The position numbers and the translations under genes were made by a program. 64,000 bases of DNA from Pseudomonadota bacterium. GTDB taxonomy: Bacteria > Pseudomonadota > Gammaproteobacteria > Xanthomonadales > SZUA-38. Location of the stretch: contig JBCCCR010000015.1 in NCBI GenBank assembly GCA_039033415.1, forward strand, positions 1 through 64,000, read 5' to 3'. A model generated the notes under the pieces. That model searched no databases. It was given only the letters and a program-made list of their open reading frames with translations, and had not been told where the DNA came from. Of the stretch, positions 42,350-53,944 are shown one piece after another. Position 1 is the stretch's first letter, and each line of letters begins with the position of its first letter.

Positions 42350-44269
42350 ATGAGAACCAAACAAGGCTTGATTTTTGCGCTTCTCGCGCTGTTGATTGGA
42401 GGTGGTAGTAGCGCGCAGATCCAACTCGCTCCAGGGCAGTCGGAAACGCTCCAATGTGTCGTCCAGACCTGCCCGCCGCCGGTTGACTGTGACTCTTGCT
42501 GCCCTGTTTGCCCGCCTCCGCCTGATCCGGTAGAGGTCAACGTCCCAGACTGTCGAGACGGCATCGACAACAACGGGGATGGCGAGACTGATTTCCCGGC
42601 AGATATCGGATGCACCGACAGTGATGATCCGATGGAGTGGGTGCAAGATGTGCCGCCCGAGCCAGATCCCGATCCTGACCCCGTTCCGCCGCCGGCGCCC
42701 GCACCCTCTGGCACGATCGCATTTGAAGAACAGACGCAATACACCTGGCCAGCGGGGCTGACGGTGTGGCGAGCGAGCTTCGCCGATTTCAATCAGGACG
42801 GCTGTTATGACATCGCCTACGGGTCTCACTCTGATGGCCAGTTTCGCCCGCTGTTCAGTCATGACGTAGCGGCAGGCTGTTCAGAGACGTGGACCCAGGT
42901 GAACAACGACGATGCACAGTACGTGCAGGCATCACCCCAGATCCCGCGTATTACCTCAAACGATCGCTACTACGACTGGACTGGCAACGGCCTGCTGGAT
43001 ATCAACGGCGACGACAGCGATGGCAGCGCGCCGGCTTTTTATCCGAGCGTCGGTCCATTCCTCTGGGGCACAAAATACAAAGTGCCGGGCGCGATGGACG
43101 GCAAGCCGCTGGTCATGCCTTTCGACGCGAACGGTGACGGCGTCATGGATGCGCTGTCCTATCTCCGAACGACTGGTGAGGTGCGCGTCACCAATGCCAT
43201 GACAGGCGACCTGCTGTGGTCGGACACCAACCCGATCAACTTCCCCTACGTGATCTTTGACGTAGACGGCGACACCTGGCCCGACCTGGTGCCGCTGAGC
43301 AACCGCCAGGCCATCACGGGCACCGATAGCTACTACAAGAGCGATCAGGACGGCACGTTTACCTGGACGGCCGGTTTCACCCCGTGGGATGGCGTGCAGA
43401 CATTCACCGCAGGCCAGTCTGAGGGCGTGCTGGGCGGCATGACGTTCGTTCAGGATTTCGATCTGGACGGCGATCTGGATCTGCTGATCGGCGAAGGTGC
43501 TCGAGACGCCAGCCCCAATCAGTACTGCATCACCCTTCAGCGAAACAACGGGGATGGGACCTACACGAAAGACGAATCGGCCATCGGCTGCCTGCGCAAC
43601 GTGCTGAACCAGTCAACGGTGCCCTATGCCAAGTCCCTCATGGCTGACTTCGATAACAACGGCTATCCGGACATCCTGTACAACCTGGGCAGTACAGCCA
43701 ACAGCGGCAGCGTTAAGAACTACTATTTCTTTCTGAACTCCGGTGGTGTGTTCACCGAATCAACAGACGATATCCGCTTTGGTGGTGGGCAAGGCGGCCG
43801 AGGTGTCGCGCCGGGTGTTGCCGACTATGACGGTGACGGTGATCTGGACATCGTGAAGCCCAAGCGCGGCGGCAGCATTCACGTCTGGAAAAACACTGCC
43901 AGCAACGGCAACTGGCTGTCGCTGAAGGTTCGGGGGCTGGAGAACAACGGGCTCCACGTTGATATTCAGGCGTTCAAGCCAGGCACCAATGAGTTGGTGG
44001 CCCACCACTACAAGGCGATCACCAACGCCTCGCAGGCGGTTCAGGACCATCACTTAGGTCTGGCGGACAACGCGAGCGTCGACGTGCGGGTGCAGTTCCC
44101 CCACGGCGGCCCGGTGTACACGTTCCCGGCAGTGGCAGCGAATCAGGTTCTAGTGGTTTGCCATGATGGCGCCCTGACGCAGGGTTACACCCCAGGCACA
44201 CCGATTGCTTGCACCCAACAGCAGGCGGGTGAACCGCCGGGAAAGATGACGGCCCGCCTAGCACCCTAA
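42350..44269 (+). CDS. secreted FG-GAP/VCBS-repeat protein with UnbV-like end
   Basis: A 639-residue protein with a Sec signal peptide (GLIFALLALLIGGGSSAQ). A Cys/Pro-rich region (residues about 30-65) precedes a CRDGIDNNGDGETDFP motif of the kind common in bacterial secreted proteins, then a Pro/Asp linker. The rest carries Ca-binding FG-GAP/VCBS motifs: DFNQDGCYDIA, DVDGDTWPDLV, DFDLDGDLDLL, DFDNNGYPDIL, DYDGDGDLDIV. The C terminus (LSLKVRGLENNG, DVRVQFPHGG) looks like the ASPIC/UnbV domain. Unexpected in a phage; it may be a host-binding tail component or a lysogen surface protein. See the frameshift signal at 44239. Confidence 0.8.
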   Translation: MRTKQGLIFALLALLIGGGSSAQIQLAPGQSETLQCVVQTCPPPVDCDSCCPVCPPPPDPVEVNVPDCRDGIDNNGDGETDFPADIGCTDSDDPMEWVQDVPPEPDPDPDPVPPPAPAPSGTIAFEEQTQYTWPAGLTVWRASFADFNQDGCYDIAYGSHSDGQFRPLFSHDVAAGCSETWTQVNNDDAQYVQASPQIPRITSNDRYYDWTGNGLLDINGDDSDGSAPAFYPSVGPFLWGTKYKVPGAMDGKPLVMPFDANGDGVMDALSYLRTTGEVRVTNAMTGDLLWSDTNPINFPYVIFDVDGDTWPDLVPLSNRQAITGTDSYYKSDQDGTFTWTAGFTPWDGVQTFTAGQSEGVLGGMTFVQDFDLDGDLDLLIGEGARDASPNQYCITLQRNNGDGTYTKDESAIGCLRNVLNQSTVPYAKSLMADFDNNGYPDILYNLGSTANSGSVKNYYFFLNSGGVFTESTDDIRFGGGQGGRGVAPGVADYDGDGDLDIVKPKRGGSIHVWKNTASNGNWLSLKVRGLENNGLHVDIQAFKPGTNELVAHHYKAITNASQAVQDHHLGLADNASVDVRVQFPHGGPVYTFPAVAANQVLVVCHDGALTQGYTPGTPIACTQQQAGEPPGKMTARLAP

Positions 44270-44282
44270 GTGCTGAGCGGGC
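44239..44282 (+). promoter_or_regulatory. candidate -1 programmed ribosomal frameshift signal
   Basis: Heptamer GGGAAAG (44239-44245) lies in the correct phase (G GGA AAG in the VCBS frame). After a 6-nt spacer comes a two-part hairpin: GCCCGC (44252-44257) with GCGGGC (44277-44282), and AGCAC (44260-44264) with GTGCT (44270-44274). The zero-frame stop TAA (44267-44269) is in the loop. A -1 shift enters a frame open to 45195 and would give a 948-residue fusion. The same heptamer is used by lambda G/GT. Confidence 0.65.
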
Positions 44283-44445
44283 AGCGCTGCTAGCCTGGCA
44301 AATACCCAACGTCACAGCGCAGGCTAATGACGCCGAGGTCAACACCGTTGGGTATGCTCAGTTAGATAGGGCACAACTGCTTTGTCGTTACGCGCAGCAG
44401 GACACTACGTGGCGTGATGAGTGCATTCGATCCGCTCAGCTCTAT

Positions 44446-45195
44446 TTGACGGAAACCCAGTCGGGTGAAGGCCAAAGGCCAAACTGCGGTACGGGCTGGA
44501 CGGGAAAGGACCCCGACGATCCCTGCGATCTGAAGTATGCCTACGCGGCTTCTGCGTGGTACTGGCTGGATCTAAACGGTCAAGCACAGCACTCGGCAGA
44601 CGACTTACAGCGCCACCATGACCTACTGCATGACCTAATGCGGTTTTTCCCGGTCACGGACAGCTCGTGGATGACGGAGCGGCACGCAGGGATTGTTTTG
44701 AATGGGCTGGTCTACCTGAACCAACTGGGCCACGACACAACCGCAGACATCGCCCATATGGTGTTTCATCTTGGCAACCGCCAGGCCGAAAAGGGGAGCG
44801 GTTGGATTCTGCATAGCCTGCAGCGCCATGAGGGCATCGGAGAGTTTGGCCACGCCCAGTGCGCGAGCCCTTGGATGTCGAACATCTTGCATTACGCGCT
44901 GACCCGAGCCGCAGCCATCAATTCCGATGCTCAGGCAGTGGCGAACGCGCTGAGGGCGGCAAACGGCGCCGTGGGTGAGCCCAGAGGCACCGGCGACGTG
45001 GTTCGATACTTCGTGTGCCCGGAAGATCCGCAGGCCCAAGCTTGGGTCGATGCGAGGTTCTGGGGAACCGATCAACATCTGCCCGACATGGTGAGTCTCA
45101 CCGGCGATGCATCGCTATGGGGCCTGCTCACAGATTCGGATTGGCGCAGAGACCATCCAAGACTGGTGAACTGGCAGCATTACGGCGTCTGGTAA
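44446..45195 (+). CDS. downstream ORF, probable frameshift extension
   Basis: The frame is open from 44234 to 45195 but offers no ATG or GTG; the first usual start is TTG 44446 (249 residues). Upstream codons read as good protein (TLSAERAALLAWQIPNVTAQ), so the true entry may be a -1 frameshift from the VCBS gene. The product is mainly helical with many His and Trp (GWILHSLQRHEGIGEFGHAQ) and four to five Cys. No family is recognised. Either a separate protein or the C-terminal part of the upstream one. Confidence 0.6.
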   Translation: MTETQSGEGQRPNCGTGWTGKDPDDPCDLKYAYAASAWYWLDLNGQAQHSADDLQRHHDLLHDLMRFFPVTDSSWMTERHAGIVLNGLVYLNQLGHDTTADIAHMVFHLGNRQAEKGSGWILHSLQRHEGIGEFGHAQCASPWMSNILHYALTRAAAINSDAQAVANALRAANGAVGEPRGTGDVVRYFVCPEDPQAQAWVDARFWGTDQHLPDMVSLTGDASLWGLLTDSDWRRDHPRLVNWQHYGVW

Positions 45196-46554
45196 ATGGC
45201 TGCCACAGTCCAGGAGGCCTTTGCTGACAATTTCGCACCAGAGGTAGGCTTCTCTGCGAACATCGCGACCGGGCTGGACATCTCCGGCAGTGACCGCAAA
45301 GCCATCTGCATTGTCTGGGGCAACATGCGATCGACCGTTGGCGAGGGGGTTACGCTCGGCGGCGTCGCGATGACTGAAATCGTGGATCTGCGCTCAAGCG
45401 ATAGCAGCTTCCGCCCTCACATTTTCGTGTACGAACTGCTAGACGCGAACTTTCCGGCTGGGGCAACAGCGGATTGCGTCATGGACTTCAGCGCTGGGTC
45501 TGGCAATGCAAACGCCACCGTGGCGATTCTTACCGGCGCGACTCAGTCATTAAGCACCTTGCTGGATTCGAACAACGACGGAACGACGACAGGCAGCAGC
45601 ACCAGCCTGACTGGCACAACGACGAGTGGCTCCGATGCGTTGCTGATCGGCCTGCTTTCCATAGAAGGCACGGACGGGGACCCCAGCATCGTTAGCGGTG
45701 CGGGTCAGACACGCCGAATCACGCTAAACCGCGCTTCTAACTCCATCGTTCTCGACGATGAAGAAGTCACGGGTGGCTCGTCAGAGACGCACAGCTGGAC
45801 ATACGACGCCGGGTGCAAGGGCGTTGCCGCGCTTCTGCAGGTGCTTTCGCCCAGTGGCGGCGGAGGCGGGACCAACTACGATGTTTCGTTGGCAGCGTCT
45901 GGTTCGGCGACAACTGTGCAATTAGGCGGTGCCGAGGCGAACGCATCCCAAGTCTCTGCCGCATCGGGAGTGACGGTTGATGTTGCGCTGAGCCAAGCCT
46001 TCGCCGACGAAATTTCCGACGCTTCAGCGGCAACTTTGCAGGCGGCTGTAAAATCCGCTGCGGAAGGCGTGGTAGTCCAAGCCGATTCGCTGTCAACGCA
46101 GGACGGCCAAGCGGAGTTTGCCGCGACTGTGGCCGCTCTGGCTACCGGCCTTACAACGCAGCTTGCATCTACAACTGGCAACCCATCGGTGGTGCTAACG
46201 GTCGCCGCCTCCGCGTCAGCGGTGTTCGACGCCGAGGTGGAAGTCGACGGCAACCTGGTATCTACGGCGGACGCTGCAACTTCGATTGCTTCGGCTGCGG
46301 CTCGTGCTGCGTTTCAGCTTTCCGGCGGCGCCGCGTCGACGCAGCAACAGGCGCTTGTAGACGCGTCGGGGCAAACCGCAGTCCCGGCTGTTGCCACAGC
46401 GATTCAGATCGGGTTCGTTCCCTCGGACGAGCCTATCAACGTCCCAAGCGAAAACGAATTTGTGATCTCGGCCGAGGTGCGTGCGAGCGCGCTCGACGGC
46501 GAGACCCGCGACTACACGATCCCCGGCGAAGGTCGGAGCACAACAATAAATTGA
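45196..46554 (+). CDS. structural or tail-adhesin protein, Ala-rich
   Basis: A 452-residue protein starting at the base after the previous stop. About 1-220 is a beta-sandwich-like domain (ITLNRASNSIVLDDEEV, THSWTYDAGCKG). A Ser-Pro-Gly hinge leads to an Ala/Ser/Val-rich segment that may form a fibre stalk, and a short C-terminal domain. Same general N-terminal fold type as the gene at 49277. Likely virion tail part. Confidence 0.6.
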   Translation: MAATVQEAFADNFAPEVGFSANIATGLDISGSDRKAICIVWGNMRSTVGEGVTLGGVAMTEIVDLRSSDSSFRPHIFVYELLDANFPAGATADCVMDFSAGSGNANATVAILTGATQSLSTLLDSNNDGTTTGSSTSLTGTTTSGSDALLIGLLSIEGTDGDPSIVSGAGQTRRITLNRASNSIVLDDEEVTGGSSETHSWTYDAGCKGVAALLQVLSPSGGGGGTNYDVSLAASGSATTVQLGGAEANASQVSAASGVTVDVALSQAFADEISDASAATLQAAVKSAAEGVVVQADSLSTQDGQAEFAATVAALATGLTTQLASTTGNPSVVLTVAASASAVFDAEVEVDGNLVSTADAATSIASAAARAAFQLSGGAASTQQQALVDASGQTAVPAVATAIQIGFVPSDEPINVPSENEFVISAEVRASALDGETRDYTIPGEGRSTTIN

Positions 46555-46567
46555 TCGAGAGATGCGT

Positions 46568-47131
46568 ATGCACACCGAAAACGTAGCGGCAGCCGACCGA
46601 AACGCGGCGTCCGTCCAGTCGAACGCGAGCGTGGTAGCGCAAGCGGTGGCCAAGCAAGTCTACGGCGTTGTAGCGCGAAACGCCCGCGGCGAGGTTTTGT
46701 GGGAAGACAAGGTCTTCAACCTAATCACCACTGTTGGTCTCACCGATCTTCTCGAACAGTACTTCCGCGGATCAGGGTACACCGCTTCTCACTTCATGGG
46801 CTTGACCGATGGGACGCCGACTGTTGCTGCTGGGGATACGATGGCGAGTCATGCGGGTTGGGTTGAAGTCACCGACTACGCGAATGCCACGCGCCGAGCT
46901 ATGACCTTTGCCGCCGCGTCTGCGGCGAGCATCAGCAATACGGGCTTTGAAGTAGTTTTCACGATCAACGCTACCGTCACTGTCGGCGGTCTGTTTATCA
47001 CCACGTCCAACGTCAAAGGCGGGACGGCCGGCATTTTGTACGCGGGCGGCCCTTTCTCAGGCGGCGACCGTTCACTCGTGAACCTCGACACCGTGACTTG
47101 TACCTTCACCAACAACATGAGTAGCAGCTAA
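46568..47131 (+). CDS. phage structural protein
   Basis: A 187-residue protein from ATG 46568 (GAGAG 6 nt upstream; ATG 46562 is also in frame). A helical N terminus is followed by VARNARGEVLWEDKVFNLIT and beta-rich sequence ending FTNNMSSS. The last base overlaps the next start. Similar proteins lie between fibre genes in phages; function unknown. Confidence 0.6.
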   Translation: MHTENVAAADRNAASVQSNASVVAQAVAKQVYGVVARNARGEVLWEDKVFNLITTVGLTDLLEQYFRGSGYTASHFMGLTDGTPTVAAGDTMASHAGWVEVTDYANATRRAMTFAAASAASISNTGFEVVFTINATVTVGGLFITTSNVKGGTAGILYAGGPFSGGDRSLVNLDTVTCTFTNNMSSS

Positions 47132-47754
47132 TGGACCAGCTCAACGAGATTGTCGAAGCGCTCAAAGCAGCGTTTCAACCACAGTTCGATGCCCTCCACA
47201 CGCGATTGGACGCGCTGGATATCGGCACCGCCCCCGTCGACCCGGACAACCCTCGTACCGGTGGCGACCCTTTAGCGATTGCCATGGTTCACGAAGAAAC
47301 CGGCGCGGTCGCTTATCAAGGCGCCCTGGCGTATCAGGCGCTCAAGAGTCAGGAGTTTCGAGACAACCCGCAGGTTGTCGAGGCCATCAATTCAGTGACG
47401 CCGTACGTGGTCCACGAAGGCTTGAGCGAAGAGCTGGATCTGCAGGCAAAGGCCAACAACGGTCAGCGAGAAGCATTGCTGAGCGTGTTCCTCGACAAAG
47501 ATGACGTCTTCATCACCGTTTACGACCGTTTTGATTTTCCCGAAGGCGGGACCCCTGTGGCGGTGAAACGCTACGACGGCAAGAACAGTAGCGATCGGAT
47601 CGGCGTGTTCTACACCAGTCCGGTTCAGACTGATGCCGCGTTGCCTACTGAGGTTGCTGTCGTGACCGAGTACAAATCCGTCGTCGATCGGAAGATCGCT
47701 TGGGTTCTGGCGAGGCAAGAAGAAGACCGGCTGCGCGCGGCGCGTCAAGAGTAA
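47131..47754 (+). CDS. hypothetical late protein
   Basis: A 207-residue protein with a coiled-coil start (LNEIVEALKAAFQPQFDALH) and a folded C-terminal domain (VFITVYDRFDFPEGGTPVAV). TAATG overlap. Not recognised. Confidence 0.6.
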   Translation: MDQLNEIVEALKAAFQPQFDALHTRLDALDIGTAPVDPDNPRTGGDPLAIAMVHEETGAVAYQGALAYQALKSQEFRDNPQVVEAINSVTPYVVHEGLSEELDLQAKANNGQREALLSVFLDKDDVFITVYDRFDFPEGGTPVAVKRYDGKNSSDRIGVFYTSPVQTDAALPTEVAVVTEYKSVVDRKIAWVLARQEEDRLRAARQE

Positions 47755-47759
47755 AGTGA

Positions 47760-48059
47760 ATGGCAGTCGCGCTCGCATCGAAAGATCCTGACGCCGATCT
47801 GCCGTACACGATCGACGCGTCTCCGTGGCTAAACGGCGGTAACCTCACGGCAGCAGATTTTGTCGGCTTCCCGGTCGGGTTAACGCTCTACTCAAAAGTC
47901 TTTGAGTCGACCGGCCTGATCACTTTCTGGTTGGGCGGCGGGACCGTCGGCCAGAACTATCAGTGGGTTTTGCGGTTGACCACCGACGTGCAAGATCCGG
48001 TCTCTCTGCAATTTCTGAAAGACGATCGAACGGTTACGATTTCTGTAGCGGAGAAGTAA
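47760..48059 (+). CDS. probable fibre-tail adaptor-type protein
   Basis: A 99-residue beta-rich protein (GLITFWLGGGTVGQNYQWVL, TVTISVAEK end) that resembles small phage proteins placed before fibre genes. It ends directly before the next ATG. Confidence 0.5.
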   Translation: MAVALASKDPDADLPYTIDASPWLNGGNLTAADFVGFPVGLTLYSKVFESTGLITFWLGGGTVGQNYQWVLRLTTDVQDPVSLQFLKDDRTVTISVAEK

Positions 48060-49277
48060 ATGCCGTACGGGAGCGATCTGGCGACGTTCCTGGGATCGGA
48101 CTATCGGTTCCCGTTGGACGGCAACGCCAACGAGACCGAGCAAGGTCTAAACGGTGCGAATAGCGGCGGGATCTTTACCCGCCCGGGCATTTGCCTAGAC
48201 GTCACCAACTGCTACTCGACCAACGGCACGGCCGATCGAATTGTTATCCCGGCAACGGGAACTATCGACGCTGCTGCGGGTGAGTTCGGTTTCTGCGGCT
48301 GGGTGCAGCTGACAGACGCCCAGCTGCCGTTTTGCCGAGTCTTCGGCTTAGGCAACGCGACGAACAATCGATCGGTCGTTCTGGGACCCGGAAATTCGGT
48401 CATTTGGGAGTGTGATAACAGCAGCTTTGTTGCACAGCGCTATGCCGATCGAAACCTTGCTGCCAACCGACCGTATCACTTTTTTTGGCGATGGACTGCG
48501 TCAGGTCTTCAGGCGTACCTGGATGGCGTAGAACAAACGCTGGGGTCGGACTTCGCTCAAGCTAGCGTCACGCTTAACGCGGCGACTCCGATTGAGGTCG
48601 GCGACCCGGCGGGTACGGTGGCGCTGGGAGGCGGCACAGTCGTACTGGTCGCCCCGGTCACGTGCGACTACAACGAGCTGCAATTTGTCAGCGGCGCGAT
48701 TGTTACCAATCTCACGGATCAACAGATCTTCGATGAGATGGTTGTCAAAGGCGCCCTCGCAGGCGTCACAATTACCGATCAGGCGGGCCTGGATGCGCTC
48801 GCAGATTCGGTTCGTCCTGACGAGCCGTTGAACATCCGAGTCGACGTCGCGGGCAGCATCAGTCTGTCGGCGGATAACGTGACTCACAGCCCTTTGGCCA
48901 CTTGCCACGTCCACTACACCGGTACCGGCACGTTGACGTGGACGAACACCAATGGCTCGAACGCCAGTATCGGTTCGGCGCCCGACGGCAACATCGTCTT
49001 CGTTAACCCGGCGACGTTAACTATCGAGGGGCTGATCTCGGGCGCGGAAGTCCGGATCTACGAAGACGACGGGGTCAACAGTCAAGATTTCGGAACCGAG
49101 CTTGCCGGTACTGAAACCCTGGCAGGTACCACGTTCAACTATCCGCACTCGGGCGCGGCGAACACAATCGTGGTGCAGATGATCGCTTCTGGCTACGAAG
49201 AGTTTCTTCGGCGCGTCGAACTGGGCGCGTCTGACCAGACGCTCACGGTCACCCCCGAACTAGACGAGAATCTCTGA
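48060..49277 (+). CDS. LamG-like tail or adhesin protein
   Basis: A 405-residue protein. A concanavalin/LamG-like domain (about 10-225) includes SDYRFPLDGNANET, FGFCGWVQL and YHFFWRWTASGLQAYLDGV. The C-terminal module (about 320-405) matches the end of the next protein: SGAEVRIYEDDG, GTELAGTETLAGTTF, SGAANTIVVQMIA. Likely a carbohydrate-binding virion surface protein. Confidence 0.7.
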   Translation: MPYGSDLATFLGSDYRFPLDGNANETEQGLNGANSGGIFTRPGICLDVTNCYSTNGTADRIVIPATGTIDAAAGEFGFCGWVQLTDAQLPFCRVFGLGNATNNRSVVLGPGNSVIWECDNSSFVAQRYADRNLAANRPYHFFWRWTASGLQAYLDGVEQTLGSDFAQASVTLNAATPIEVGDPAGTVALGGGTVVLVAPVTCDYNELQFVSGAIVTNLTDQQIFDEMVVKGALAGVTITDQAGLDALADSVRPDEPLNIRVDVAGSISLSADNVTHSPLATCHVHYTGTGTLTWTNTNGSNASIGSAPDGNIVFVNPATLTIEGLISGAEVRIYEDDGVNSQDFGTELAGTETLAGTTFNYPHSGAANTIVVQMIASGYEEFLRRVELGASDQTLTVTPELDENL

Positions 49278-51532
49278 TGCCAGTTTCGCGCGTTGGCTTT
49301 TCGTCGAACAACACCAACAATGTAAGCAGTATGTCAGTGCCAGTCCCTGCCGGGACTGTAAACGGTCACGTCATGCTGCTTCTCATGCAGTGCGACGGAA
49401 ACGGCTTTGCGCTTCCTGCGGGCTGGAATGAGATTGGATCAGAGGCGACGCACGGATCAAGTCGGTCTCGTATCGCTTGGCGCGTAGCTAACAACGAGCC
49501 TGCCAGCTACACGATAACTACGAACAGCGGTAACGAGCGCGGCATTGCGTTTATCGTTACCTACCGAGACGTAGCCAACGCCGGTCCGATCGACAACTTC
49601 TCGATCAACAATCAGGCGTCAAACCAAGCGTCTCCGGCGAATTTTGCTGCGATGACGCCGACGCAAGACGATTGTATGGTCGTCGCGTTTCTTGCCACTG
49701 AATCGGGCAACAACGGCAACAGTTTTGTAACAAGCTGGCCGGCGAATTTCATTGAGGCGGCCGATAACACCAACGGGCCGCCCGGAACTGGGTCAGGTTC
49801 CGCTGGAGGCGCTTTTGCCGAGTGGAACCAAACGACCGCGGCCCAAGCTAGCGGCAATGCCGCGCACTCAACCGGCAGCACGGCCTACGCGGCCTACTTC
49901 ATCTCGCTGGTTTTTGAAGTGCCGGTCATCGGCATCGATGACCAGGGAGACGAGCAGCTTGACGCAGGCGATGTCAACGAGCTGATCGACGGCTTTGGGT
50001 TCGGAGCAGTTCAAGGCACCGGGAAAGTTGAAATCGGCGACAGCGCCGACTACGGCACCGCGACACTAGTCGAGCAGACGGTAACCGCTTGGGCAGACGA
50101 TCAGATAACTTACGATCTGGTCTCGACCGGGTTTACCAACGGCGCCAAGTTCGTTTTTGTAACGAACGACAAAGGCGATCGAACTTCCGGCTATCAGGTA
50201 AATTTCGGGAGGCTGCCGTATGGCGAAATCCTGCAGGCCCTCGACTTCGACATCATTCATTCGTTCGATGGGAATTTCGACGATACCGGGGCCCGAGCCG
50301 GCGGGTACGCGGCAAACGGTCAAGTAGACACAGCGCCGAATAGTTTCAAATCGGAAGCGGGAATCCCAGGCGGCAATACTCAGTGCTGGGGCCCGGATAG
50401 CGTCACCGCCAAGATTGAAATGGCGGACACGCCGTGGACCAACGTTACCAACACGCATCAGCGTCGCGAGATCATGGGCTGGATTCAGTTGCCCGCGACG
50501 CCGTACAAACGAGCAACAGTTCTTTGGGAAGAAGGCGGTGGCGTAAACAACCACTATTTCGCCTTGGGCCCGGGGAACGCATTGTTTTTCAACGTTGCAG
50601 ACTCTAACGGGTCTCCAGCGTTTAAGGCTCAAGCGTTTGCGGATTTCCCGCTGACGCCGCTGCGGTGGTACCACATCCACGGCATCATGGAATGCGGTGT
50701 CGGGATTCAAGGTGTTCAGTTGAACATCGACGGGTTAGCGGCCCAGGTTACCGCAGGCGATCTTCCGATCACCGATACAACGTTCTCTACGCATTCGGGC
50801 GACTACACCTACGGGGGTGGAGACGGATCGCTCGACACGGGCGACGTCGACATAACCTACGCCAGCTCCGACGGAACAAAGTTCGCGTGGTGGGCTACCA
50901 TGTCGAACAGCGGGGGCGGTGCGCCACTTACTGCCGATGAACGGCGGCAACAGTGTTTCGCGCTGTCATGCCCATTCGAACTCGATCTAGGTTCTGATAC
51001 CGAAGCTAACATGCAGGTCGCGATTGATGCGGAAGCGCCAGTCGCGTACTCCAACGTGCCCGGCGCCATACGAATCAGCAGACCCGCAGGCGGCGGGGAC
51101 CTTCGAATCGAGCTGAACGATGTCACGTTCGATAGTGCGGTTTCGCTGCAAGTGTATTGGGACGGGAACGCCGGGGAAACGCTGACGCTCGTTAACAACG
51201 GCACCAGTAACGTCGACGCAAACATGTGCATCGCAACTTTCGGCGGCCCCATTGTCGTCGAGAACCCAGCGACCTTAACCGTCGCCGGCCTTATCGCCGG
51301 CGCCGAGATCCGAATCTATGACGACGACGTCGGCGGGAGCAACTTGGGCACCGAGCTTGCCGGCATCGAAACGCTGGCGGGCACGACATTCCAATATAGC
51401 CATTCGGGAGCGGCCAACACGATCATCGTTCAGATGATCGCTGACGGTTTCGAAGAAGTGCTCGAGACGTTCCAGCTGGCCGCCCAAGATCAGACTTTGA
51501 CCGTTAACCCAATTGTGGAAACCAACGTATGA
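49277..51532 (+). CDS. large LamG-like tail or adhesin protein
   Basis: A 751-residue protein. An N-terminal beta domain (about 1-215), a linker, a LamG-like domain (about 320-560; SFDGNFDDTGARAGGYAANG, WYHIHGIMECGVG) and a C-terminal module paralogous to that of the preceding gene (GAEIRIYDDDVGG, SGAANTIIVQMIADG). Start overlaps the previous stop by 1 nt. Likely the main adhesin. Confidence 0.7.
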   Translation: MPVSRVGFSSNNTNNVSSMSVPVPAGTVNGHVMLLLMQCDGNGFALPAGWNEIGSEATHGSSRSRIAWRVANNEPASYTITTNSGNERGIAFIVTYRDVANAGPIDNFSINNQASNQASPANFAAMTPTQDDCMVVAFLATESGNNGNSFVTSWPANFIEAADNTNGPPGTGSGSAGGAFAEWNQTTAAQASGNAAHSTGSTAYAAYFISLVFEVPVIGIDDQGDEQLDAGDVNELIDGFGFGAVQGTGKVEIGDSADYGTATLVEQTVTAWADDQITYDLVSTGFTNGAKFVFVTNDKGDRTSGYQVNFGRLPYGEILQALDFDIIHSFDGNFDDTGARAGGYAANGQVDTAPNSFKSEAGIPGGNTQCWGPDSVTAKIEMADTPWTNVTNTHQRREIMGWIQLPATPYKRATVLWEEGGGVNNHYFALGPGNALFFNVADSNGSPAFKAQAFADFPLTPLRWYHIHGIMECGVGIQGVQLNIDGLAAQVTAGDLPITDTTFSTHSGDYTYGGGDGSLDTGDVDITYASSDGTKFAWWATMSNSGGGAPLTADERRQQCFALSCPFELDLGSDTEANMQVAIDAEAPVAYSNVPGAIRISRPAGGGDLRIELNDVTFDSAVSLQVYWDGNAGETLTLVNNGTSNVDANMCIATFGGPIVVENPATLTVAGLIAGAEIRIYDDDVGGSNLGTELAGIETLAGTTFQYSHSGAANTIIVQMIADGFEEVLETFQLAAQDQTLTVNPIVETNV

Positions 51533-51852
51533 ATGTTCGACTCGAGCTGGCCTACGCGACGGCTCAATGGGCGCTGGGATCGAATGACGACGATTGGGTT
51601 GTAGTAAGCGAAACCGGTGAACATCTTTGGCAGCTGCCCGGCAAGTTAAGCGACCGAGAGATTATGTCCGCCGTTCGCATGGGCCGAGAGTTTGAGCTGA
51701 AGGCGTTCAACATCGGCATCGAGTTTGGGAAAAAACAAGAAAAAGAGCTCAGCGAGCGACGTATCGCACATCTGGAGGGCCAGATTCGAACGCTTGAAGC
51801 AATGAATAGCGAGCTGAGCGCCCACCTTGAAAGGCATATTGGAGGCGAATAG
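51529..51852 (+). CDS. hypothetical protein with C-terminal coiled coil
   Basis: A 107-residue protein overlapping the previous gene by 4 nt. The second half is a coiled coil (ISEGQIRTLEAMNSE-like heptads). May be a chaperone or trimerisation helper for the fibre; inferred from place only. Confidence 0.55.
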   Translation: MNVRLELAYATAQWALGSNDDDWVVVSETGEHLWQLPGKLSDREIMSAVRMGREFELKAFNIGIEFGKKQEKELSERRIAHLEGQIRTLEAMNSELSAHLERHIGGE

Positions 51853-51854
51853 CA

Positions 51855-53363
51855 GTGGCAACCCCGCAACTTATTGATCTGAGTAACTACAGCACGCTGC
51901 TTGTTCAGTCGACTCAAAGTCGGGCGGGATCTCCCGACGGCAATTTCTTCTTCGACGTGGCCAACGGCCGAGTGGAGATCATCACGGCGGAGGAGTTGGC
52001 TCAGGTAGATTTGGGGAGCGGTCTCGAAGCCAACCCGCTAACGCAGGATCTCGGCATTAAGATGGAAGCCTGTTATGCGTTTGAACGGCAGGAGCGGCGA
52101 GTCGACGAGGAGCTTCGAAAATACGACCCGTTCTTTGACGGCGTGTTTAAGTTCGGGGGTGCGTATAACGCAATCAACGGTCGCAAGTTTGACGATGCAT
52201 CTGGCTCCGGCACCTCGCTTACGGGAGACGACCGCGCCAAACTGCGCGGCTCCGGCTGGAGGGAACTCGCCGCTGACGGTTCGATTGACCGAATTTATTA
52301 CGGTGCGTTTTCCCTGAGCCCGATTTTGGCTCTGTCACAGCCTTACTATCAGCTGTCTAACGGCGGCGCTCCGGTAGATTTCAACAAGGACGGCCCGATC
52401 GACGAAGCGATTCAGGTTTTCGGTACCACGGCGAACGGCGACGCGGGAGCGGGGAACTTCGATACTCGGACGTTCTTGTCACTAAAGGTTCGGACCTACG
52501 GTCAGAACTACGACGAAAAGCAACTAGCGGACTCTGGTGTAACGGAGATGGGCGGCTACGCGACCGGTTTCGCTATCGGGGAGACGCCCCACCTCACGAG
52601 CGGCGCCTTTGCGCTGGCCGATGTCTATGGCGGCGCTCAGATCTCGCCTTGGACTGGCATGACGCTCGAGCAGCTGGCGGCCCCGCAGGTTGAGTCCGGT
52701 TTCAACGAAGCGGACGGCAACTTTACCTGGGTTCTGAACAACGACAACAACGGGAGCCTATACGAAGCTGTTGCGTTTCTCGACGCGCTGGCTCAGACAG
52801 ACGACGATATTGATTCCGGAGCTATCTCAGTTACCAACGGGAAACGAGTCGGAACGTGGTACGCCTACGATGCGCAGGGCCGCATCGTCACCAACTCGCC
52901 GTTCTCGAGCCAAGGACTCTTTATCGAGAACGTTCCGACAGCAGACGAACAGCTGGTTGTCTTCACTGATGACGCGGGAGGCACCAAGACTCGACCGTTC
53001 CAAGTCTCGATCCAGGTGACTGTCGGCCCCAACGCTGTGGCCGATACAAACGCTTGGTATCACGCCTTCTATCTGGACGGCCCGGGCGGTAGTGATTTCA
53101 ACACCGTTAACGCATTGACTATCCAAGACTCGACGGCTACCGAGGTCAAAGGGAACGTGGCGACCGATCAGGTATCGAATCGTATTGACTTCGCTTTCGA
53201 CTACGATGGCGACACGATTGGCGGACCTGCTGGTACGGACAAAGACGGGGTCTTTCAATGTGAAGGAGACGGCGGGGTCACCGCAGCCAAGACTGTCTTC
53301 ACAATATCGCGTACGACCACGATCGCCGTCTCCTGCGTGCCGGGTGTTGAGACCAATGTCTGA
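51855..53363 (+). CDS. tail or baseplate-associated structural protein
   Basis: A 502-residue protein from GTG 51855. No named domain; segments such as FFDVANGRVEIITAEELAQV and FLSLKVRTYGQNYDEKQL recur in phage tail-associated proteins of this layout. It ends in a beta module with GVETNV, like the end of the 49277 product (VETNV). Confidence 0.6.
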   Translation: MATPQLIDLSNYSTLLVQSTQSRAGSPDGNFFFDVANGRVEIITAEELAQVDLGSGLEANPLTQDLGIKMEACYAFERQERRVDEELRKYDPFFDGVFKFGGAYNAINGRKFDDASGSGTSLTGDDRAKLRGSGWRELAADGSIDRIYYGAFSLSPILALSQPYYQLSNGGAPVDFNKDGPIDEAIQVFGTTANGDAGAGNFDTRTFLSLKVRTYGQNYDEKQLADSGVTEMGGYATGFAIGETPHLTSGAFALADVYGGAQISPWTGMTLEQLAAPQVESGFNEADGNFTWVLNNDNNGSLYEAVAFLDALAQTDDDIDSGAISVTNGKRVGTWYAYDAQGRIVTNSPFSSQGLFIENVPTADEQLVVFTDDAGGTKTRPFQVSIQVTVGPNAVADTNAWYHAFYLDGPGGSDFNTVNALTIQDSTATEVKGNVATDQVSNRIDFAFDYDGDTIGGPAGTDKDGVFQCEGDGGVTAAKTVFTISRTTTIAVSCVPGVETNV

Positions 53364-53944
53364 TGGCTCAGATTGCCTCCGAGGATTACGTCAACCTGCG
53401 GATTTATCTGCACGCTGACACGGTAAGCCAGGGTTTCGACCCCGCTGCAATGCAGCGAGAGCATCGAGCGCTTCGCCGCCTAGACGCGAACGGAGAGCGC
53501 GCCTTTGACCCGATGGTGTCGTTCTCCGGCAACGAATCGAAGGGCGGCGGCAACTTCACCGCGGGCTTGACTATTCTGCGCTCGGGCGTTCGGATCGTTC
53601 CGTTCGACGCAAACCACTCGCTCGATCTGTTGAATGAGATCGTCAACATCGACGACGCGATCTCTGACCGCGACGTGTTCGATCGATCGTTGATCACGTC
53701 GAGCGTTGACATCGACCCGGTCTATTCACCGGTGGAGATCCGCGAGGTCTCATCGGGAAGTGGATTGAGCGTGGATGAACAAGCTCAGCTGCTTTTGGTC
53801 AGCCGAATCATTCAGGCCGACATGTATTTCGACAAGACGGCCGGATTGCTGCACTACTACGACCCCGGCACGACTATCGACATCATTCCGCCGAAGCAGG
53901 TGTCGGGGGAAGAAGTCGCCGGCACGGTTCAGTTGACGACGTAA
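53363..53944 (+). CDS. phage structural protein
   Basis: A 193-residue protein (GLTILRSGVRIVPFDANHSL, IIQADMYFDKTAGLLHYYDP), coupled by 1-nt overlaps at both ends. Not named; virion-associated by position. Confidence 0.55.
   Translation: MAQIASEDYVNLRIYLHADTVSQGFDPAAMQREHRALRRLDANGERAFDPMVSFSGNESKGGGNFTAGLTILRSGVRIVPFDANHSLDLLNEIVNIDDAISDRDVFDRSLITSSVDIDPVYSPVEIREVSSGSGLSVDEQAQLLLVSRIIQADMYFDKTAGLLHYYDPGTTIDIIPPKQVSGEEVAGTVQLTT

Follow-up and report, generated by a model that had tools for sequence, protein, structure and literature searches.

A candidate programmed −1 ribosomal frameshift cassette extending an exported FG-GAP protein of a siphovirus-type prophage with a predicted (alpha/alpha)-toroid domain

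Introduction

Expression of the lambda G/GT tail chaperones depends on a −1 frameshift at the slippery heptamer G_GGA_AAG. This sequence is highly shift-prone in E. coli, and Shine-Dalgarno (SD)-like stimulators of −1 frameshifting have been placed within a range of 9–14 nt upstream of the shift site (PMC5009743). Phages also employ programmed frameshifting to equip virion proteins with additional C-terminal domains of Ig-like or carbohydrate-binding type, the coat protein of phage T3, the SPP1 tail protein and TpeX of the 936 phages being examples (PMC5009743, PMC6669499). It was further suggested in a review, with regard to phage Ig-like domains, that mobile domains inserted out of frame are retained through frameshifting (PMC5009743).

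The locus described here, located in a window of 64,000 nt (the whole stretch of DNA that was analysed), is a variant of this known phage use of frameshifting and not a new category. As in the Ig-like and carbohydrate-binding extensions, an accessory C-terminal domain would be placed on a fraction of the copies of a phage protein; however, the base protein carries a signal peptide and FG-GAP repeats, and the added domain is predicted to be (alpha/alpha)-toroid-like, with no placement in the virion implied. With the lambda-type G/GT system it shares the heptamer, the direction of the predicted shift (−1) and a short zero-frame tail, but the site is not upstream of a tape-measure gene and the protein is not a chaperone. 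The arrangement of SD-like stimulator, heptamer, short spacer and 11–12 bp stem-loop resembles that of E. coli dnaX, in which, in contrast, the shift yields the shorter product, whereas here it would yield the longer one. A homologous toroid-like region is found in PcRGLX/YetA-like secreted proteins, from which the phage copy differs in lacking the N-terminal RIFT domain and in being joined to FG-GAP repeats instead. A sequence-only reading of this DNA had considered the use of such a signal on a secreted or adhesin protein to be new; phages already extend virion proteins in this way (PMC5009743, PMC6669499), and what stands of that claim is that our literature search found no report of a frameshift extension on an exported protein of the FG-GAP type.

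Results

The window contains a siphovirus-type prophage, apparently intact, in which replication genes and lysis genes (an endolysin and the overlapping Rz/Rz1-like ORFs 41583 and 41950) are followed by the FG-GAP gene and its extension. Next come closely packed genes (45196-53944), which are probably tail-fibre or host-recognition genes, and then the terminase, portal, protease, head and tail genes. Protein and profile searches of annotated phages and IMG/VR retrieved no relatives of either the FG-GAP part or the extension, and no further copy of the locus itself; likewise, a pattern scan with the next gene and the terminase gave no viral relatives, and Rfam gave no match. Elsewhere in the prophage, a 751-aa ORF (window 49277-51532) has a nearly full-length relative (33%) in Maribacter phage Panino (PP540027.1), which has a Bacteroidota host.

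The zero-frame ORF (42350..44269, on the forward strand, as are all features of the locus given below) encodes an exported FG-GAP repeat protein of 639 aa, whose N-terminus, MRTKQGLIFALLALLIGGGSSAQ, is signal-peptide-like when read by eye and which scored 77.3 bits against Pfam FG-GAP_3 (cut-off 26.9, E=1.3e-21). Contig C25 of this genome encodes two FG-GAP paralogues that share 57% and 53% identity with it, and both terminate roughly at the position of the heptamer in the phage protein, which indicates that the short form is full-length for its family and not truncated. These paralogues reside in a surface-polysaccharide-like host gene cluster (L007:3798-14194, G000:C25), along with two apparently secreted proteins related to the extension domain, the second of which is in L018:5809-7809.

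Beginning at 44233, six bases upstream of the heptamer, the −1 frame stays open as far as the TAA at 45193-45195. Counted from the GGG at 44239, the extension (44239..45195) spans 318 codons and not 316 as had been stated, while the reported absence of ATG and GTG holds for the whole −1 frame; its earliest TTG, at 44446, lies within the conserved domain. The fusion amounts to 948 aa, the length given earlier, with the junction peptide EPPGK-DDGPP. Windowed codon preference switches from frame 0 to frame −1 at ~44210-44240, and the codon-position G+C of the extension (0.65/0.47/0.67) matches the pattern of the phage; its codon fit was 0.07, versus ~0.2 for neighbouring genes. The ATG of the next gene (45196..46554) abuts the stop codon of the extension without overlap (TAAATG, at 45196) and is preceded by a weak SD (−1.7 kcal/mol), which suggests that this gene is reached by ribosomes translating the −1 frame, although several neighbouring genes are SD-poor too and the coupling argument is thus a supportive one.

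We defined a −1 cassette by an in-phase X_XXY_YYZ heptamer within the frame overlap, a stable RNA structure 5–9 nt downstream and, optionally, an SD-like stimulator 9–14 nt upstream, and found all three at the locus, the last one post hoc. The heptamer GGGAAAG (44239..44245) is in phase with ORF 42350-44269, reading ccG GGA AAG ATG, and a 6-nt spacer (44246-44251) separates it from a putative stimulatory hairpin of 31 nt (44252..44282), which consists of 6 bp, a 1x1 mismatch and a further 6 bp (12 bp in total) closed by a 5-nt loop, CCTAA, that contains the zero-frame stop TAA (44267..44269). The three-part signal described in the sequence-only reading was hence recovered as such. By itself, the hairpin has a folding energy of −20.7 kcal/mol; compared with shuffles of its own G+C-rich 60-nt stretch it is only moderately unusual (z = −2.0), and in a competing fold the bases around the heptamer pair with downstream sequence. 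The SD-like stretch AGGCGGGTGA (44223..44232), which contains GGTGA, lies ~9 nt upstream of the shift site in the anti-SD register, with a predicted duplex of −9.9 kcal/mol; a match this good occurs at 2.5% of host codon positions, in a test made after the sequence had been seen. An inverted repeat, GGCGG-GTGAA-CCGCC (window 44225-44238), overlaps this stretch and touches the heptamer, and it could mask the SD-like element or attenuate slippage.

The background was taken from 113,033 in-phase codon positions in 400 kb of two host contigs. In-phase XXXAAAN or XXXTTTN heptamers were present at 146 of them (0.13%), and GGGAAAG or AAAAAAG at six (0.005%). A hairpin of −20.7 kcal/mol or below, 4–9 nt downstream, was seen at 1% of 1,500 sampled host positions, whereas none of 138 host heptamers was followed by one this strong and none of 153 by a −1 extension of more than 70 codons. 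An in-phase heptamer would be expected in ~1.5% of random 36-nt frame overlaps, which, multiplied by the 1% for the hairpin, gives ~1.5e-4 by our own combined arithmetic, without counting the SD-like element.

Across the prophage, 20 in-phase slippery heptamers were found in 13,890 in-phase codon positions, among which the site at 44239 ranks first both for hairpin strength and for length of the −1 extension (309 codons). At 44502 there is a second in-phase GGGAAAG, which is followed by next to no hairpin and by no extension. The only other heptamer with a long −1 extension (145 codons) is A_AAA_AAC at 64090, which is followed by a 7-nt spacer and a hairpin within the tail-chaperone G/GT region (contig 63692-64536, L040:3692-4536, spanning the window end) and comes directly before the tape-measure ORF (64533-69806). 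By its sequence arrangement, this is the canonical tail-chaperone site, and we used it as an internal positive control: −1 frameshifting is evidently employed at another place in this prophage, and the 44239 site is closer to the 64090 site than to the background. We also considered whether 44239 might itself be a tail assembly chaperone G/GT site, which was ruled out by its position, not just upstream of the tape-measure gene, and by the assignment of the G/GT of this prophage to 63692-64536.

The nearest relative of the extension, 43% identical, is encoded on JANQOZ010000109.1, a Lysobacterales MAG representing another genome of the same genus, where the domain is fused in a single frame to a protein that has a signal peptide and other FG-GAP repeats. 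This single-frame homologue, of the kind that had been proposed as a check, was the one FG-GAP fusion found among the genome relatives of the extension, and all others examined are stand-alone. The distant relatives are mostly stand-alone proteins as well, several with signal-peptide-like starts and often near glycan genes; they include those on C25 of the same genome, on JAAYXJ010000189.1 and in G485, the one on JAAYXJ010000189.1 being directly 5' of an FG-GAP gene that belongs to the same family as the phage protein. In a seven-sequence alignment of the family, the extension retains all of the invariant residues.

With regard to known families, the extension matched none in Pfam, PHROG, NCBIfam or PADLOC, a PDB sequence search with the domain family gave no match, and Foldseek returned nothing under E=0.001. 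The low-confidence model of the extension (pLDDT 58) is an all-helical toroid that aligns to AGE/cellobiose epimerases with Z up to 15, near the chance level for helical folds, and also to GH88/105 and GH76 folds. We regard an (alpha/alpha) toroid as the likely fold and a glycan-related function as probable. Some distant relatives carry the PcRGLX_1st N-terminal domain, one of them above the cut-off. The extension was ruled out as a full member of the PcRGLX-like lyases, since the protein encoded in the window lacks the N-terminal RIFT barrel domain (PF19501) that occurs in distant relatives. Two neighbouring paralogues in opposite orientations, each with a PcRGLX-like N-terminal domain, lie beside glycosyltransferase-like genes in another genome from the same class (L019:5085-9271).

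Discussion

Taken together, a complete short form, the invariant residues kept in the extension, the lack of any other start and a signal far above chance make programmed −1 frameshifting the best explanation. From the sequence, we assign a probability of roughly 0.77 to the locus being a programmed −1 ribosomal frameshift cassette that gives two exported isoforms, the long one being minor. The majority of ribosomes would stop at TAA 44267-44269 and release the complete 639-aa exported FG-GAP protein, while a few, paused by the hairpin and aided by the SD-like sequence, would slip from G_GGA_AAG to GGG_AAA and read on to 45195, yielding the 948-aa protein, which ends in the predicted (alpha/alpha)-toroid domain and would be made in a constant, minor proportion relative to the short form. 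We infer both the slippage at this heptamer and the export of the two forms. Other members of the family of the added domain are secreted proteins, several being encoded in gene clusters for surface polysaccharides. Since the added domain has neither a start nor a signal peptide of its own, frameshifting is the only evident route by which it could be made and exported.

Both an indel and an assembly error had been kept open by the sequence-only reading, and we retain them as rivals. A recent indel in a formerly single-frame fusion gene, in which the extension would be a young pseudogene and the signal would be coincidental in both heptamer and hairpin or allow leaky rescue only, is the main one, given that the searches yielded no further copy of the locus by which conservation of the signal could be shown; even so, we regard it as improbable. 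The same-genus fusion of an FG-GAP protein to the domain in a single frame is what would be expected had the phage gene once been one frame, the frame change could have occurred anywhere in 44233-44269, and the extension has a slightly low codon fit. On the other hand, a heptamer and hairpin this good would arise in a 36-nt overlap with a chance of only ~1.5e-4, the −1 frame is unbroken over 318 codons with all family-invariant residues kept, and the short form terminates where the paralogues do. This last point also speaks against a single-frame gene having been disrupted by an error of sequencing or assembly, which we hold to be very improbable: the source is apparently an unfinished assembly of 62 contigs, but long homopolymers are absent from 44233-44269 and an error would not produce the spacing and the hairpin.

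It is just as improbable that the second ORF is a separate gene, with an unusual start codon and translational coupling at the FG-GAP stop. The domain is indeed its own gene in other genomes, and a weak SD (−4.3) precedes a CTG at 44287, but no ATG, GTG or TTG occurs before 44446, a start at that position would lose conserved residues, the product would be without a signal peptide, which stand-alone relatives seem to possess, and the heptamer would be left unexplained. The sequence-only reading had named separate genes with proper starts as the finding that would speak against it; the domain is in fact usually a separate secreted gene, although the one same-genus relative is fused in frame to FG-GAP repeats. 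Its proposal of a lambda-type −1 signal joining a secreted FG-GAP protein to the next ORF, which we would rather call lambda/dnaX-type, is well supported by sequence and statistics with regard to the signal, and partly as a whole.

Beyond the programmed −1 frameshift itself, we tentatively propose, at somewhat less than even odds, that a temperate phage uses programmed −1 frameshifting to control how many copies of an exported surface protein of host origin carry a glycan-active domain, with two exported isoforms made in lysogeny or late infection and a second, independent −1 site serving its tail chaperone. If true, programmed frameshifting in phages would extend past tail chaperones and Ig-like or carbohydrate-binding decorations to an exported FG-GAP protein with a carbohydrate-enzyme-like domain, in a cassette that would be easy to assay. 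It would also show how phages combine captured host surface-polysaccharide modules, with an out-of-frame module kept functional by frameshifting.
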